Shown in pieces: positions 15,017 through 31,598 of a DNA stretch of 64,000 nucleotides. The stretch is from assembly GCF_013408335.1 (NCBI RefSeq), contig NZ_JACBZR010000001.1, positions 930,001 through 994,000 of the forward strand. Direction: 5' to 3'. Origin of the DNA: Nocardioides panzhihuensis (GTDB taxonomy: Bacteria > Actinomycetota > Actinomycetes > Propionibacteriales > Nocardioidaceae). Within the stretch, counting starts at the first letter, position 1. The number at the start of each line of letters is the position of its first letter. Below the pieces are notes generated by a model, which was given only the letters and a program-made list of their open reading frames with translations, had not been told where the DNA came from and did not search any database. Both the position numbers and the translations under genes were made by a program.

Positions 15017-15058
15017 ATGCTGAACAGCATTATCGTACTTAGCAGGCGCGTCGCCTAG
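15017..15058 (+). CDS. ilvB leader peptide MLNSIIVLSRRVA
   Basis: A 13-codon frame with consecutive Ile-Ile-Val-Leu codons (ATT ATC GTA CTT) ends in TAG 28 bases before a transcription terminator that precedes ilvB. All three branched-chain amino acids are represented, matching the fact that IlvBNC serves all three. It fits a ribosome-mediated attenuator, as described for actinobacterial ilvB genes. ATG 15017 sits six bases after the -10 box, so the peptide probably starts at the mRNA 5' end; an in-frame GTG at 15011 is a less likely start. A small hairpin AGGCG-CGT-CGCCT (15044-15056) overlaps the last codons. Confidence 0.85.
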   Translation: MLNSIIVLSRRVA

Positions 15059-15085
15059 GAGCCACTGGCCCCAGACGACGCGTCT

Positions 15086-15118
15086 CCCTCCGTTGCCCGC
15101 CGGGCCGGAGGGTTTTTT
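15086..15118 (+). terminator. ilvB attenuator terminator
   Basis: CCCTCCG (15086-15092) pairs with CGGAGGG (15106-15112), with an inner GCCC/GGGC stem, followed by six T residues. It is a textbook intrinsic terminator lying between the leader peptide and ilvB, so it must be read through for expression. A separate hairpin AGACG-acg-CGTCT lies just upstream (15073-15085). Confidence 0.88.
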
Positions 15119-15174
15119 GTTGCACAAGCAGCCCAAGCAAGACAACCGAGCACAGCCCATGAGTAGAAGCTCCG

Positions 15175-16944
15175 ATGAGTAGGACGGCGGACATGAGCGA
15201 GCAGATGACAGGCGCACAGAGCCTGATCAAGTCGCTGGAAGCAGCGGGTGCCGAGAACATCTTCGGCATTCCGGGAGGCGCGATCCTTCCGGCGTACGAC
15301 CCGCTGATGGACTCGAAGATCCGCCATATCCTCGTACGCCACGAGCAGGGAGCCGGCCACGCCGCCCAGGGCTACGCCGCCGCGACCGGCAAGGTCGGCG
15401 TCTGCATGGCCACCTCCGGTCCGGGCGCGACCAACCTGGTCACCCCGCTCGCCGACGCCAACATGGACTCCGTGCCGATGGTGGCCATCACCGGCCAGGT
15501 CGGCGCGGCGATGATCGGCACCGACGCCTTCCAGGAGGCCGACATCCGCGGCATCACGATGCCGGTCACCAAGCACAGCTTCCTCATCACCGACCCGGCG
15601 GAGATCCCGCTCCGGGTCGCTGAGGCCTTCCACCTCGCCTCCTCCGGGAGGCCGGGTCCGGTCCTCGTCGACGTCACCAAGTCGGCGTTGCAGGCCACCA
15701 CCACCTACCGGTGGCCGACCGAGCTCCACCTGCCGGGCTACCGCCCGGTGACCAGGCCGCACGCCAAGCAGATCCGCGAGGCGGCGCGCCTGATGCTGGA
15801 GGCCAAGAAGCCGGTCCTGTACGTCGGCGGCGGCACGATCCGCTCCCGCGCCCACCGCGAGCTCTTCCAGCTGGCCACGCTCACCGGGATCCCGGTGGTG
15901 ACCACGCTGATGGCCCGCGGCGCCTTCCCCGACTCCCACCCGCAGCACCTGGGCATGCCGGGCATGCACGGCACCGTCCCCGCGGTCGCCGGCCTGCAGA
16001 AGTCCGACCTGATCATCAGCCTCGGCGCCCGGTTCGACGACCGGGTCACCGGCAACCTGGACTCCTTCGCCCCCAACGCCAAGGTGATCCACGCCGACAT
16101 CGACCCCGCCGAGATCGGCAAGAACCGCTACGCCGACGTCCCGATCGTGGGCGACGTGCGCGAGGTCCTCACCGACCTGATCACTGTGCTCACCGCGGAG
16201 AAGGAAGCCGGCAAGGAGGGCGACTACGAGGGCTGGATCTCGTTCATGGCCGGGATCAAGAAGGCCTACCCGCTCGGCTACGACCTCCCCGCAGACGGCC
16301 TCTCCCCGCAGTACGTCATCGAGCGTCTCGGCAAGATCTCCGGCGACGAGACGATCTTCACCGCCGGCGTCGGCCAGCACCAGATGTGGGCGGCGCAGTT
16401 CATCGGCTACGAGCACCCCAACACCTGGATCAACTCCGGTGGCCTGGGCACGATGGGTTACTCCGTCCCGGCCGCGATGGGCGCGAAGGTCGGCTGCCCG
16501 GACGCCACGGTCTGGTCGATCGATGGTGACGGCTGCTTCCAGATGACCAACCAGGAGCTCGCGACCTGCGCGATCGAGAACATCCCGATCAAGGTCGCGA
16601 TCATCAACAACGACAACCTCGGCATGGTGCGCCAGTGGCAGACGCTCTTCTACGGCGAGCGCTACTCCAACACCAACCTGCAGTCCCACGGCCAGCACAA
16701 GCGCATCCCCGACTTCCCCAAGCTGGCCGAGGCCATGGGCTGCGTCGGCCTGGCCTGCGACTCCGCCGACGACGTCGATGCCACCATCGAGAAGGCCATG
16801 GAGATCAACGACGCGCCTGTCGTGGTCGACTTCCGGGTCAACAAGGACGCCATGGTGTGGCCGATGGTCGCCGCCGGCTCCTCCAACGACGAGATCCAGT
16901 ACGCGCGCGACCTCGCGCCCGAGTTCGACGAGGACGACCTCTGA
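15175..16944 (+). CDS. ilvB: Acetolactate synthase large (catalytic) subunit
   Basis: 589 residues. It makes acetolactate from two pyruvates, or acetohydroxybutyrate from pyruvate plus 2-oxobutyrate, with thiamine diphosphate, FAD and Mg2+. Visible: [15 protein letters not shown] with [15 protein letters not shown] (catalytic Glu for ThDP), the FAD region [32 protein letters not shown], and the ThDP motif [32 protein letters not shown] 15175 and ATG 15193 are both possible starts; the second has a better ribosome site (AGGACGG). The start lies 57 bases after the attenuator T-run. Stop overlaps ilvN by one base (TGATG). Confidence 0.97.
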
Positions 16945-23568: not shown

Positions 23569-24648
23569 ATGGAGATCAGCACCACATTGTCGACCCAACC
23601 GGCCACCGACAAGCAGCGCGCGGAGGTCCTGGCGAACCCAGGCTTCGGCAACCATTTCACCGACCACATGCTCACCGTCGAGTGGACGCCCGAACAGGGC
23701 TGGCACAACGGTCGCATCGAGGCGTACGCGCCGATCAGCCTGGACCCGTCGGCAGCCGTGCTGCACTACGCCCAGGAGATCTTCGAGGGCATGAAGGCCT
23801 ACCGGCACGAGGACGGCTCGATCTGGTCGTTCCGGCCCGAGGCCAACGCCGCCCGGATGGCCCGCTCCAGCGAGCGCCTGGCTCTGCCCGTCCTCGAGAT
23901 CGAGGACTTCGTGCAGACCGTCTTCGACCTGGTCGAGGTCGACCACCGCTGGGTCCCCGAGGCATCCGAGAGCGACGAGAAGAGCCTCTACCTGCGGCCC
24001 TTCATGTTCGCCTCGGAGGCGTTCCTCGGTGTCCGCCCGGCCCAGCACGTCACCTACATGGTCATCGCCTCGCCCGCCGGCTCCTACTTCAAGGGCGGCG
24101 TGAAGCCGGTCCGGATCTGGCTCAGCGAGAACTACACCCGCGCCGGCCGCGGCGGCATGGGCGCGGCCAAGACCGGCGGCAACTACGCCTCCTCCCTGGT
24201 CGCCCAGGCCGAGGCCACGGCCAACGGCTGCGACCAGGTCGTCTTCCTGGACGCGCAGGAGGGGAAGTACGTCGAGGAGCTCGGCGGCATGAACCTCTAC
24301 TTCGTCCACTCCGACGGCCGGATCGTCACCCCCGAGACCGGCACCATCCTCGAGGGGATCACCCGGGCCTCCATCATCGAGCTCGCGGGCAAGCTCGGCT
24401 ACACCGTCGAGGAACGCAAGTTCACCATCGACGAGTGGAAGTCCGGCGTCGAGTCCGGTGAGATCACCGAGGTCTTCGCCTGCGGCACCGCCGCCGTGGT
24501 CACCCCGGTCGGCGAGCTCGTCCACGAGGGCGGCTCCATCGCCTCGGCCGGTGACGGCGAGGTCTGGCGGACCATCCGCAAGCAGCTCGTCGACATCCAG
24601 TTCGGCCGCGCCGAGGACACCTTCGGCTGGATGCGCAAGATCGTCTGA
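23569..24648 (+). CDS. ilvE: Branched-chain amino acid aminotransferase
   Basis: 359 residues. PLP enzyme of fold type IV that makes Val, Ile and Leu from their keto acids using glutamate. Visible: the PLP lysine in GAAKTGGNYASSLVAQAEA, the EELGGMNLYFV motif, and the phosphate-binding ACGTAAVVTPVG. Two ATGs are possible (23563 and 23569). I chose 23569, which lies seven bases after TAATCT (23556-23561). The next element is a repeat array, not another gene. Confidence 0.96.
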   Translation: MEISTTLSTQPATDKQRAEVLANPGFGNHFTDHMLTVEWTPEQGWHNGRIEAYAPISLDPSAAVLHYAQEIFEGMKAYRHEDGSIWSFRPEANAARMARSSERLALPVLEIEDFVQTVFDLVEVDHRWVPEASESDEKSLYLRPFMFASEAFLGVRPAQHVTYMVIASPAGSYFKGGVKPVRIWLSENYTRAGRGGMGAAKTGGNYASSLVAQAEATANGCDQVVFLDAQEGKYVEELGGMNLYFVHSDGRIVTPETGTILEGITRASIIELAGKLGYTVEERKFTIDEWKSGVESGEITEVFACGTAAVVTPVGELVHEGGSIASAGDGEVWRTIRKQLVDIQFGRAEDTFGWMRKIV

Positions 24649-24804
24649 GGCCGAGACGTCGGTCGCGTCGGCCGAGACGTCACGTACGCAGGCCGAAGCG
24701 TCACTCCCGCGAACCGAGATGGCAGATGGATGCCCACTCGGGCGACGGGGGTGACGCTTCGAGCGACGGGGGTGACGCTTCGGGCGACGGGGGTGACGTC
24801 TCGG
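24649..24804. repeat. Intergenic repeat array A (CCGAGACGTC / GGGGGTGACGCTTCG)
   Basis: Starting at the ilvE stop, three copies of CCGAGACGTCAC-type units (one as CCGAAGCGTCAC) are followed by a spacer with GAGATGGCA and then three 21-base units ending GGGGGTGACGCTTCG or GGGGGTGACGTCTCG. Left and right halves are inverted relative to each other and can form a long stem. The same design recurs at 31352 and 55836. It fills the ilvE-kinase gap of 205 bases. Confidence 0.8.
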
Positions 24805-24853: not shown

Positions 24854-26374
24854 GTGACGACAGCCCCGCGCCTGCCCCGGGCGAGCCGACGAGAGAGCGT
24901 CGGTGACTACGACCTGCTCTCCTTGCTGGGGCAGGGCGGGATGGGACGGGTCCATCTGGCCAGCCACCGCGTGAGCGGTGAGCGGGTGGCGCTGAAGGTG
25001 CTGCGTACCCAGTTCGTCGGGGACGAGGAGGGGCGCCAGCGGCTGGCACGCGAGGTCTCCTCGCTGCAACGGGTGCGGAGCAGGTGGGTCGCCGGTGTGG
25101 TCGCGGCCGACCCGTGGGGCGAGGTGCCGTGGCTGGCGACCCGATACGTCCCGGGGCCGACGCTGCACGACAAGATCGTCAACGAGGGTGTGCTCTCGCG
25201 CGACGAGGTCGAGCAGCTGGCCAGCGACCTGGCCGAGGGCATCGCCGACTGCCACGCCGTCGGAGTTCTTCACCGTGACGTCAAGCCCGCCAACATAATT
25301 ATGGAGGGGCGGCGCACCCCGATCCTGATCGACTTCGGGCTCGCCCGCGTCGCCGACGACCCGAAGATCACCGTGACCGGCCTGCTGATCGGCACGCCCG
25401 GCTACCTGCCGCCCGAGATCGCCGTCGGCGACCCGGCCACCCCGGCGTCGGACGTACACTCGTGGGCCGCCGTGGTGGCGTACGCGGCGACCGGCCGCCC
25501 GCCCTTCGGCGAAGGCAACTCGATGAAGCTGATGGACCGGGCCCGGCGCGGTGAGCACGACCTGGAGGGCGTGCCGCAGCTGCTGCGCGGGCTGCTCGGC
25601 CAGGCGCTCTCGCCCGATCCGGCCGACCGCCCGACGCTGGACGAGGTGCGCGAGTGGCTGCGTACGCCGCGCCGACCGTTCGTGCACAAGCCGGTCGAGC
25701 AGCTCTCGCTCAGCGACCGGACCGAGCGTGAGAAGGCCACCACCCCCGCTGCGCCGTTCCCGCCGGTCGGCCGGCCCGGCCCGCGCCCGGACAGCCGCCG
25801 CGACAACGGCCTGGAGAAGCTGCGCCGCGGGGCGATCTGGCTCGGTCTGCTCGCCTTCGCCGTCGGCGTGATCGCTGCGTTCCCGAGCGTCGGCTTCTGG
25901 GCGGTGCTCGGCGCGGCGTGGCTGATCCGCGCCGGCACGCTGGCCGCCGGCGATCTGCGCCGCTGGCGTTGGTATCGCGGCCGCAAGTGGCACGACGCGC
26001 CCCGGCTCCTGATCGGTGCGCCCTGGCGGCTGGTCCGCTCGCTCCCGAAGACGTTCGTCGTCGGGGTGTGGGGCTTCGGGTTCGTGGTGGCGGCAGTGCT
26101 GATCGGCTTCGCCCTGCAGCTCTCCTTGCCGACGGCTCTGGGCTTGGCGGGCCTGGCCTTCGTGGGCGCGCTGTGGACCGGCTCCGGACGCGACCGGCTG
26201 CGCGACCCGGTGACCAAGGTGGTCCGGCGGGTCTCGGAGCGATGGGTGCCGTGGGCCCTCGGGTTCGCGGTGGTCCTCACCCTGGCTCTCTTCCCGGTCC
26301 AGACGCTTGCCGACAACGGCCCGCAGTTCTCCGGCGGCGACGAGCCGTGGTGGGTCGAGCTCCTCGGCTGGTGA
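24854..26374 (+). CDS. Serine/threonine protein kinase with C-terminal membrane spans
   Basis: 506 residues. An N-terminal Hanks-type kinase domain: Gly-rich loop LGQGGMGRVHLA, Lys in RVALKVLRTQ, HRDVKPANII, DFGLARVADD, and GTPGYLPPE in the activation segment. After about residue 285 a linker leads to at least five hydrophobic segments (AIWLGLLAFAVGVIAAF, TFVVGVWGFGFVVAAVLIG, and WVPWALGFAVVLTLALF). No PASTA or other sensor domain is seen. GTG 24854 lies seven bases after TAAGGT, so the mRNA is probably leaderless. It is upstream of the cimA leader, but the terminator and its own promoter separate them. Target unknown. Confidence 0.88.
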   Translation: MTTAPRLPRASRRESVGDYDLLSLLGQGGMGRVHLASHRVSGERVALKVLRTQFVGDEEGRQRLAREVSSLQRVRSRWVAGVVAADPWGEVPWLATRYVPGPTLHDKIVNEGVLSRDEVEQLASDLAEGIADCHAVGVLHRDVKPANIIMEGRRTPILIDFGLARVADDPKITVTGLLIGTPGYLPPEIAVGDPATPASDVHSWAAVVAYAATGRPPFGEGNSMKLMDRARRGEHDLEGVPQLLRGLLGQALSPDPADRPTLDEVREWLRTPRRPFVHKPVEQLSLSDRTEREKATTPAAPFPPVGRPGPRPDSRRDNGLEKLRRGAIWLGLLAFAVGVIAAFPSVGFWAVLGAAWLIRAGTLAAGDLRRWRWYRGRKWHDAPRLLIGAPWRLVRSLPKTFVVGVWGFGFVVAAVLIGFALQLSLPTALGLAGLAFVGALWTGSGRDRLRDPVTKVVRRVSERWVPWALGFAVVLTLALFPVQTLADNGPQFSGGDEPWWVELLGW

Positions 26375-26418
26375 GACGCTCGTCCCACTGGAGGAGATTT
26401 CGTGGCAGGATCAGGGCC

Positions 26419-26448
26419 ATGACGACGTACGCCATCATCATTCGCTAG
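26419..26448 (+). CDS. cimA leader peptide MTTYAIIIR
   Basis: A nine-codon frame carrying three Ile codons in a row (ATC ATC ATT) ends in TAG 26 bases before a strong terminator and 117 bases before cimA. CAGGAT (26406-26411) lies exactly seven bases before ATG, so the peptide appears to be at the very 5' end of the mRNA. Leu and Val codons are absent, which matches the isoleucine-only role of citramalate synthase. This is a strong candidate for isoleucine-specific attenuation. Confidence 0.85.
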   Translation: MTTYAIIIR

Positions 26449-26500
26449 CGCGCCGAGCCCCGCTCGACGCGCCACCCTCTCGTCCCCGAGAGGGTTTTTT
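26448..26500 (+). terminator. cimA attenuator: leader hairpin and intrinsic terminator
   Basis: Two adjacent stems follow the leader stop. The first, GCGCGCCGAG with CTCGACGCGC (26448-26472), has one mismatch and a 5-base loop. The second, CCCTCTCG (26475-26482) with CGAGAGGG (26487-26494), has a 4-base loop and is followed by six T residues (26495-26500): an intrinsic terminator. The first stem starts on the last base of the stop codon, so a ribosome at the stop would occupy it. Confidence 0.88.
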
Positions 26501-26565
26501 GTTGCCCAGCCCCAGAAGCCAGCCCAGCCCCAAGACCCCAGATCCAGCCCGAGGACAGAAGAGCC

Positions 26566-28191
26566 ATGGAATTCCACGTCTACGACACCACTCTGCGCGA
26601 CGGTGCGCAGCAGGAGGGCCTCAACCTCAGCGTCGCCGACAAGCTCGCGATCGCTCGGCATCTCGATGGCTTGGGCGTCGGGTTCATCGAGGGCGGCTGG
26701 CCCGGGGCGAACCCGAAGGACACCGAGTTCTTCAGAAGAGCCGTCTCCGAGCTCGACCTCAAGCACGCGCGGCTGGCTGCCTTCGGGTCGACCCGCAGGG
26801 CCGGGGTGAGGGCGGCCGACGACCCCCAGGTCGCTGCGCTCCGTGACTCCGGCGCCTCGGTCGTCACCCTGGTGGCGAAGTCCCACGACCGCCACGTCGA
26901 GCTCGCGCTGCGCACCACGCTCGAGGAGAACCTCGCGATGATCCGCGACACCGTCTCCCACCTGCGCGAAGAGGGTCAGCAGGTCTTCCTCGACGCCGAG
27001 CACTTCTTCGACGGCTACCGGGCCAACCGCGACTACGCGATGGAGGTCTTGAGGACGGCCTACGAGGCCGGCGCCGAGGTCGTCGCGCTCTGCGACACCA
27101 ACGGCGGGATGCTGCCGGGCTGGGTCTCCGACGTCGTCCACGACGTCCGCGAGACCACCCAGGGCGCTGTCGGGATCCACTGCCACAACGACACCGGGTG
27201 CGCGGTCGCCAACTCGCTGGCCGCAGTGGAGGCTGGCGCGATGCACGTCCAGGGCTGCATCAACGGCTACGGGGAGCGTACGGGCAACGCCGATCTGGTC
27301 TCCGTGGTCGCCAACCTGCAGCTCAAGCTCGGCCGCGAGGTGCTCCCGACCGGTCTGCTGGGCGAGGCGACCCGCGTCGCCCACGCGGTCGCCGAGGTGA
27401 CCAACGTGCCACCCGCGGGACGGCAGCCCTACGTGGGCGCCTCCGCCTTCACCCACAAGGCCGGTCTGCACGCCTCCGCGATCAAGGTCGACCCCGACCT
27501 CTACCAGCACATGGACCCGGCCGCGGTCGGCAACGACATGCGGCTGCTGGTCTCGGACATGGCCGGCCGGGCCTCGATCGAGCTCAAGGGACGCGAGCTC
27601 GGCTACGACCTCTCCGACGACCGCGACCTGGTGACCCGGGTGACCGAGAGGGTCAAGGAGGCCGAGCAGCGCGGCTACACCTTCGAGGCGGCTGACGCCT
27701 CCTTCGAGCTGCTCCTGATCGAGGAGGTCGAGGGCGCGCGCCCGGCCTACTTCGAGGTCGAGTCCTGGCGGGTCATCTCCGAGGCACGTGGTGGTGGTCA
27801 GGCTGCTTCGACCGGCTCGGGGGCCTCGACCACGGAGGCGATCGTGAAGATCCACGCCGACGGCGTACGCCACGTCTCGACCGGCGAGGGCAACGGCCCG
27901 GTCAACGCGCTGGACCAGGCGCTGCGGGCCGCGATCACGCGTGCCTTCCCCGTGGTCGCCGACTTCGACCTGATCGACTTCAAGGTGCGGATCTTCGACC
28001 AGGGCCACGGCACCGACGCGAAGACCCGGGTGCTGATCGAGACCTCTGACGGCGTGACCTCGTGGACGACCGTGGGTGTCGGGTCGAACGTGATCGAGGC
28101 CTCCTGGGAGGCGCTGGTCGACGGGCTCACCTTCGGGTTGCGACGTCACGTGAGCAAGACCACACCCGCAGGCGCCGTCGCCGTGGAATGA
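26566..28191 (+). CDS. cimA: Citramalate synthase
   Basis: 541 residues. It condenses acetyl-CoA with pyruvate to (R)-citramalate, the entry to isoleucine synthesis without threonine. Signatures: VYDTTLRDGAQQEGLNLS at the N-terminus (metal Asp and catalytic residues of the DRE-TIM family), HCHNDTGCAVANSLAAVEAG (metal His pair) and the C-terminal LeuA dimer-type regulatory domain from about residue 400, interrupted by a Gly/Ala/Ser-rich linker. The length and the GGWPGANPKD segment separate it from isopropylmalate synthase. LeuC, LeuD and LeuB, all in this window, complete the route to 2-oxobutyrate. Confidence 0.93.
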   Translation: MEFHVYDTTLRDGAQQEGLNLSVADKLAIARHLDGLGVGFIEGGWPGANPKDTEFFRRAVSELDLKHARLAAFGSTRRAGVRAADDPQVAALRDSGASVVTLVAKSHDRHVELALRTTLEENLAMIRDTVSHLREEGQQVFLDAEHFFDGYRANRDYAMEVLRTAYEAGAEVVALCDTNGGMLPGWVSDVVHDVRETTQGAVGIHCHNDTGCAVANSLAAVEAGAMHVQGCINGYGERTGNADLVSVVANLQLKLGREVLPTGLLGEATRVAHAVAEVTNVPPAGRQPYVGASAFTHKAGLHASAIKVDPDLYQHMDPAAVGNDMRLLVSDMAGRASIELKGRELGYDLSDDRDLVTRVTERVKEAEQRGYTFEAADASFELLLIEEVEGARPAYFEVESWRVISEARGGGQAASTGSGASTTEAIVKIHADGVRHVSTGEGNGPVNALDQALRAAITRAFPVVADFDLIDFKVRIFDQGHGTDAKTRVLIETSDGVTSWTTVGVGSNVIEASWEALVDGLTFGLRRHVSKTTPAGAVAVE

Positions 28192-31351: not shown

Positions 31352-31591
31352 CGCCGAGACGTCACCCCGGTCGGCCGAGACGTCAACTACGTCGGCCGAG
31401 ATGGCACGCTGATGCCGTCTCGGCCGACGGGGGTGACGCTTCGAGCGGCGGGGGTGACGCTTCGGCCGACGGGGGTGACGCTTCGAGCGGCGGGGGTGAC
31501 GCTTCGGCCGACGGGGGTGACGCTTCGAGCGGCGGGGGTGACGCTTCGGCCGACGGGGGTGACGCTTCGGCCGACGGGGGTGACGCTTCGG
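31352..31591. repeat. Intergenic repeat array B between convergent amidase and bioN
   Basis: Two or three CCGAGACGTCA-type units and a GAGATGGCA spacer are followed by eight near-identical 21-base units that share GGGGGTGACGCTTCG and alternate mainly between GACGG and GGCGG starts. The first few units are inverted relative to the rest. The array fills the gap between the two stops. In the minus frame it would encode KRHPRRP repeats, but those frames have no start signals. Confidence 0.85.
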
Positions 31592-31598
31592 CTGGGGG

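Follow-up and report, generated by a model that had tools for sequence, protein, structure and literature searches.

A conserved isoleucine-codon leader with two abutting hairpins that probably attenuates the citramalate synthase gene cimA in actinomycetes

Introduction

In the attenuators of the Escherichia coli trp and ilvGMEDA operons, a ribosome on the regulatory codons of a leader peptide decides between alternative RNA structures, a principle that we also propose for the element described here. In these classical systems the antiterminator shares a strand with the terminator, the leader is preceded by a Shine-Dalgarno sequence, and the ilv leader mixes codons for three amino acids.

A different arrangement has been proposed in a 2025 mutational study of Corynebacterium glutamicum ilvBNC, the available sections of which describe adjacent antiterminator and terminator hairpins with a three-base overlap (PMC11857589). 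As far as those sections and the available parts of the ilvB-II motif paper (PMC10272879) go, this “fast attenuator” is like the cimA element in having a hairpin directly before a terminator hairpin with a U tract, a leader with branched-chain codons that starts one nucleotide from the transcript end (much as predicted for the cimA leader), and an antiterminator and terminator that are adjacent and not nested, provided that the first cimA hairpin (H1) acts as the antiterminator. The C. glutamicum element controls ilvB with Leu, Val and Ile codons and has three hairpins with a shared GCC trinucleotide, whereas the cimA element presents Ile codons and two hairpins that usually share nothing; this comparison is one of described architecture.

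Leaderless transcripts account for 17% of the total in Streptomyces lividans, and the ilvB and leuS leaders are among them (PMC8079986, available sections). By the same partial account, its IlvL (ilvB) and LeuL2 (leuS) peptides, together with the ilvB and leuS leaders of Seliverstov et al. 2005 (PMC1262725, likewise in its available parts), are leaderless with codons before a hairpin and a terminator, as predicted for cimA, and the KRVG at the end of IlvL resembles the RRAG of many cimA leaders; they differ in carrying mixed or Leu codons where the cimA leaders carry Ile. The accessible text of PMC1262725 also reports that changing the candidate codons of Streptomyces coelicolor ilvB left regulation unaffected, which counts against any codon model for the ilvB sister of the element studied here.

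The first-pass annotation knew of no described cimA attenuator, and our literature search turned up none. We found no report of an actinobacterial cimA or ilvA leader in the literature searched; Lopatovskaya et al. 2010 (cited in PMC4833913) could describe one. The terms cimA and citramalate are absent from the available main text of PMC1262725, PMC8079986, PMC11857589, PMC10272879, PMC4833913 and PMC2965389.

Results

The cimA leader in the window

We analysed a 64,000-nucleotide stretch of Nocardioides panzhihuensis DNA (the window), in which the first-pass annotation had noticed the open reading frame MTTYAIIIR with three Ile codons, a hairpin on its stop codon and a terminator with six T's, and had read them as an isoleucine leader in front of cimA. 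All of these parts are present as claimed (Table 1); the observation is confirmed, and the interpretation is supported by the sequence comparisons below. The CAGGAT seven bases before the ATG was also found where it had been placed (26406-26411), and we found that it is preceded by a TGn at 26403-26405, missed by the annotation, which makes it an extended -10.

Table 1. Coordinates of the leader elements and the genes behind them in the window.
Feature	Position	Strand	Basis
Extended -10 TGG-CAGGAT (predicted)	26403..26411	+	7 bases before leader ATG; read in sequence and relatives
Leader ORF MTTYAIIIR, stop TAG	26419..26448	+	ORF type common to 164 cimA loci
Regulatory codons ATC ATC ATT (Ile Ile Ile)	26434..26442	+	sequence and relatives
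Hairpin H1, GCGC clamp at base	26448..26472	+	fold, covariation, model R1
Intrinsic terminator hairpin T (predicted)	26474..26495	+	one-base gap after H1; terminator scan, covariation
Terminator run of six T's	26495..26500	+	read in sequence
Candidate Shine-Dalgarno of cimA, GAGGA (predicted)	26551..26555	+	read in sequence
cimA, citramalate synthase	26566..28191	+	TIGR00977, 651 bits, cut-off 450
ilvB sister leader MLNSIIVLSRRVA* (Ile Ile Val Leu)	15017..15058	+	R1 15035-15119, 19.5 bits, E 0.0069
H1 hairpin of ilvB leader	15044..15085	+	R1 match, sister-element comparison
Terminator hairpin and T's of ilvB leader	15086..15118	+	read in sequence
ilvB, acetolactate synthase large subunit	15175..16944	+	NF005860, 1089 bits

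The leader reads ATG ACG ACG TAC GCC ATC ATC ATT CGC TAG, and H1 begins with the G of that TAG. A covariance model built on cimA leaders with their codons included (R1) matches at 26437-26501 with 69.7 bits, and 65 bases separate the end of the terminator from the start of cimA, whose nearest relatives with names are Nocardioidaceae (81-84% identity). The RNA of 26419-26515 folds at -33.8 kcal/mol, compared with -22.4 (sd 3.2) in 200 shuffles (z -3.63, 0/200 as good). Furthermore, the interval 25500-27500 holds three terminator-like sites against 0.4 expected, two of the three being hairpin T of the leader. The decisive evidence against chance is comparative, across relatives.

A 21-base repeat (TCGGGCGACGGGGGTGACGCT type) forms two arrays, at 24648-24804 and 31353-31592, which lie about 6.5 kb apart and flank the kinase-cimA region; the portion 31420-31592 contains 8.2 copies with a 42-base higher order.

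Distribution of the element before cimA genes

We collected 240 loci, 80 from named relatives and the rest from further genomes of the genus and the class, some genomes being present in both collections; the class set comprises 108 loci hand-picked for spread among the matches listed. Sequence upstream of a cimA gene was usable for 236, after exclusion of L047 and L065 (no upstream sequence) and of L082 and L083 (distant homologues). We first looked for short ORFs in which two Ile codons stand side by side and which are followed by a terminator, and found them at 150 of the 236. Because selection by codon had to be avoided, we built a second covariance model (R2) on H1 and T alone, without codons, from 42 training sequences drawn from these 150. 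At a threshold of 33 bits, the next best matches reaching at most 22.3 bits, R2 finds the element before 164 of the 236 cimA genes, all 42 training sequences among them: 31/78 of the named loci and 54/58 and 79/100 of the others. The R2 and Ile-ORF sets overlap at 149 loci, and H1 starts 82-278 nt before cimA in all 164 R2 elements, which represent 159 distinct sequences and 142 distinct peptides.

The element is present at 48/50 genus loci and, among the matches listed, at 85/108 class loci, with at least one locus in 21/24 families; named carriers include Nocardioides, Nonomuraea, Amycolatopsis, Kutzneria, Pseudonocardia, Cellulomonas, Cellulosimicrobium and Demequina. This distribution bears on the reading that a chance ORF precedes the terminator of the upstream kinase gene and has no part in cimA regulation. 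T does start only 100 bases past the end of the kinase ORF, and a sigma-70 consensus scan shows no promoter between kinase and leader; nevertheless, the element accompanies cimA across those 21 families of the class loci, the same module precedes ilvB, leuS, leuA and ilvA elsewhere, and an extended -10 of the conserved type sits between kinase and leader. A terminator belonging to the kinase was dropped since the element goes with cimA across families, and we regard that reading as highly improbable.

R2 finds no element at 72 of the 236 loci, among them 15 of the 46 usable loci in the named range L001-L046 and every one of the 32 usable loci in the named range L048-L080. By family it is absent by R2 from f19 (0/9), f27 (0/8) and f36 (0/1). 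The f27 genomes are small, and cimA appears there directly behind another gene. One locus, L063 (Ilumatobacteraceae), has an Ile leader and a terminator by the first search, yet no R2 match. In f19, the sequences upstream of cimA (L200, L207, L208, L211-L214 and L191) have by eye a common stretch with a GCGCG-rich inverted repeat, in which no Ile run and no terminator was seen by eye and no Rfam match was obtained at the six loci tested.

Isoleucine codons at the stem

The annotation had proposed codon conservation in relatives as a check on its reading. We found that an Ile codon stands just before H1 in 164/164 of the structure-found elements; the end of the Ile triplet lies 2-8 nt from H1 in 161 of them and 9, 10 or 11 nt away in the other three, and in 92 of the 150 elements measured the distance from last Ile codon to H1 is 5 nt. 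The run at the stem (n=164) consists of one Ile codon in 14, two in 81, three in 68 and four in one, and 222 of the 328 codons in the two positions preceding the last Ile are themselves Ile. Ile is likewise present in 15/15 of the R2 matches that lie outside the Ile-selected set, several of which had escaped the Ile-based search by having a single Ile codon.

Codon choice in the leaders differs from that of the genes behind them. Among 412 leader Ile codons, 227 are ATC, 185 ATT and none ATA, while the downstream genes of 84 loci, taken as the longest open frame in each (cimA), have 989 ATC, 25 ATT and 9 ATA (n=1023). ATT thus makes up 45% of the leader Ile codons compared with 2.4% downstream, an enrichment of about 18 fold. 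The lack of Leu and Val codons, which the annotation had pointed out, holds for the window leader but not in general, as a Leu or Val residue occurs somewhere in 106 of the 164 leaders; at the stem itself, Ile codons predominate.

Covariation and geometry of the two hairpins

In an alignment of 44 elements, for the picking of which H1 played no part, 15 of the 20 pairs show double-sided changes and 94.2% of cells pair, the share of T in this pairing being partly by construction because the sequences were picked for a terminator. Neither value was reached in any of 500 shuffles, and sliding the partner along the alignment lowers pairing to 41-53%. H1 alone has 93.1% of cells paired and double-sided changes at 7/10 pairs, its first three pairs being invariant in the 44 elements.

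The distance between H1 and T is -3 to 3 nt in 150/150 elements (18 overlap by 1-3 nt, 74 adjoin without a gap, and 58 are 1-3 nt apart), a closeness that is partly imposed because the search range was -4 to 5. With an overlap in only 18/150 and a gap of 1 in the window element, the contest over a boundary trinucleotide proposed for the C. glutamicum “fast attenuator” is usually missing.

We also placed a ribosome on the leaders. When its A site holds the first Ile codon of the run, the ribosome covers 0-2 of the first 10 nt of H1 in 157/164 elements, and when it stands at the stop codon it covers all 10 in 160/164; this geometry is not an independent test, as it follows partly from the order of Ile codons, stop and H1. 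On this sequence geometry, the position of the ribosome can gate H1.

Start of the leader

For each leader, the candidate in-frame starts (ATG, GTG or TTG; 2.9 on average) were compared by their -10 and the one with the best was taken, a procedure that favours starts bearing the motif. With starts chosen in this way, TGnNAnnnT is found 5-10 nt upstream in 151/164 leaders, compared with 15/3269 at single random anchors further upstream. A looser -10 pattern places the site 6 or 7 nt from the start in 126/164 leaders and leaves 10 leaders with no site; the most frequent hexamers are CAGACT, CACCAT, CACGAT and CACACT. None of the five-mers GGAGG, AGGAG, GAGGA, GGAGA and AGAGG occurs between -18 and -4 of any of the 164 leaders. 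The extended -10 at a nearly fixed distance and the absence of these Shine-Dalgarno five-mers favour the leaderless start suggested in the annotation, and this sequence pattern supports a leader that is leaderless or nearly so. The consensus sigma-70 scan gives no promoter at the cimA leader or at the ilvB leader of the window, and no convincing -35 was seen at the leader; the -10 claim accordingly rests on the comparison of relatives.

Search for an antiterminator

The annotation's picture suggests classical attenuation, in which an antiterminator would share a strand with T. Under such a trp-type reading, a stalled ribosome would mask the 5′ strand of H1, the freed 3′ strand would pair with the terminator and act as antiterminator, and H1 would be the protector. 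The parts list (leader ORF, hairpin, terminator) is identical, a ribosome placed on the final Ile codon hides 4-5 nt of the base of H1 in 142/164 elements, and antiterminators have been drawn for Streptomyces leuS leaders by Seliverstov et al. (PMC1262725, in its available sections).

We folded 150 elements with the RNA masked up to 12 nt past the A site. Masking the 5′ strand of H1 leaves T favoured, with a mean T pairing of 0.91 either way, which speaks against the trp-type reading. In partial transcripts, before the 3′ arm of T is made, pairing of its 5′ arm rises on average from 0.32 with no stalled ribosome to 0.37 with one, and by more than 0.1 in 57/150, as the trp-type reading would have it, but with shuffled linkers and a stalled ribosome it reaches 0.41, so that the real linker pairs with the T 5′ arm less than shuffled ones do. 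All three strand-by-strand tests gave duplexes between H1 and T strands that are weaker than those of shuffled sequences, again contrary to that reading; the H1 loop is neutral towards the T 5′ arm and, in its favour, slightly stronger than shuffled towards the T 3′ arm (-6.2 vs -5.8).

Collectively, masked folds, partial-transcript folds and duplex tests revealed no antiterminator that shares a strand with T. Classical attenuation is thus a part of the earlier picture that these tests do not support; we consider the trp-type reading unlikely, and T seems selected to fold undisturbed.

Riboswitch and T-box readings were dropped, as there was no Rfam 15 match at gathering score: the matches in the window are tRNAs only, and 12 relatives searched at E up to 1 gave a single match, under the cut-off.

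Sister elements before other genes

R1 also matches before ilvB in the window (Table 1), where the leader looks leaderless, with a TAACGT six bases before its ATG. The ORFs after this ilvB are putative ilvN and ilvC, and the window also holds leuB and ilvE. In 30 relatives, R1 has matches in 29. Secondary matches lie before leuS at eight places, where the codons at the stem are Leu (the gene identified by TIGR00396 for L273 and by reading the ORFs for the other seven). In 98 class genomes a match is found in 68; of 87 listed places we examined 20, hand-chosen away from the known cimA places, and these comprise 11 cimA, 5 ilvB, 2 leuA, 1 leuS and 1 ilvA.

The two leuA cases, L311 (by TIGR00973) and L323 (by reading), belong to family f12 and have the module with Leu-Leu-Leu codons; a good cimA match is absent, among the matches listed, from the three f12 genomes examined. 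Of 26 f19 genomes, 16 have R1 matches (L329-L344), 16/16 before an IlvA-like gene; the codons at the stem there are a single Ile (ATT) or Ile-Ile. The best match of this gene is threonine ammonia-lyase TIGR01127, below cut-off, from a scan of a 346-residue piece. At 29 ilvB loci of relatives, where the leader ORFs were selected for having three branched-chain residues in a row, the runs are mixed (ILVL, ILV and LLV, for example) and III does not occur.

Accordingly, the codons track the gene, with Ile, Val and Leu before ilvB, Leu before leuS and leuA, and Ile before ilvA. With ilvB represented by the window and 5/20 places, leuS by 9 places, leuA by 2 and ilvA by 16, the architecture is common to cimA and its sisters, the distance between H1 and T being -1 to 5 nt in 33 sister elements.

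Metabolic setting

A search for PF00585, which represents the regulatory end of the biosynthetic kind of threonine dehydratase and was limited to that kind, found it in 29 of 59 genus genomes, that of the window included, and not in the other 30. A good cimA match is present in 29 of these 30, so that in them cimA may be the chief entry into isoleucine, with the leader switch as its control point.

Four genus genomes are without a good cimA match (G018, G023, G036 and G047). The first three carry PF00585, which suggests loss or exchange of the route into isoleucine; G047, 85% complete, is without it.

Discussion

Taken together, these comparisons indicate that the element is very probably an Ile-codon attenuator. 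It has the layout of a leader-peptide attenuator in the general sense, with codons for the pathway product before a terminator (164/164) and a predicted terminator between leader and gene. With this layout before 164 of 236 cimA genes, the cell likely gauges its isoleucine supply by the speed of the ribosome over the codons. Our main reading, to which we give a probability of roughly 0.6 on sequence grounds, is that this conserved leader, in which H1 abuts T, likely stops cimA transcription when charged Ile-tRNA is plentiful.

Under this hypothesis, transcription would start at or beside the leader ATG and the ribosome would load on the bare 5′ end, to meet three Ile codons that end five bases before H1. 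When Ile-tRNA is short, the ribosome would stall once the first Ile codon occupies its A site, leaving the 5′ strand of H1 free, so that H1 could fold; lying one base before T, the folded H1 may then hinder closure of the base of T at the polymerase, and cimA would be transcribed. When Ile-tRNA is plentiful, the ribosome would reach the stop codon and cover the whole 5′ strand of H1, T would close freely, and transcription would stop. By analogy, this would be the trp logic with H1 in the place of the antiterminator, abutting T without a shared strand. That H1 itself is the antiterminator is a somewhat doubtful part of the scheme; against it, T stays favoured in our folds with or without masking of the H1 5′ strand, and H1 can refold once the ribosome leaves the stop codon. 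The 72 cimA loci without the element and the reported codon changes in S. coelicolor ilvB also weigh against the main reading.

The position of the ribosome might also act on T by another route, for instance through pausing of the polymerase at H1, which would give the ribosome time to catch up, a stalled ribosome or coupled transcription then deciding termination. H1 is placed where a pause hairpin would be, and pausing by the first hairpin has been proposed for C. glutamicum ilvBNC (PMC11857589, available sections). However, a pause does not by itself explain the closeness of H1 and T in the 150 elements measured, and we hold it to be improbable as the explanation.

Returning to the abutting-hairpin reading, its extension to the sister genes is tentative: actinomycetes might use one codon-programmable module of abutting hairpins, without a strand-sharing antiterminator, in which H1 blocks T sterically, the codons set the amino acid sensed for the gene, and codon choice, such as ATT, tunes the response.

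As far as our literature search shows, citramalate synthase would here have its first described attenuator, one whose codons at the stem are Ile. The module stands on ilvA in f19, whose sampled cimA genes are without it (0/9), which makes a natural test of what feeds isoleucine synthesis. Furthermore, the missing antiterminator makes an old puzzle testable, namely how attenuators of this kind work in actinobacteria, given the reported lack of effect of codon changes in the S. coelicolor ilvB leader.
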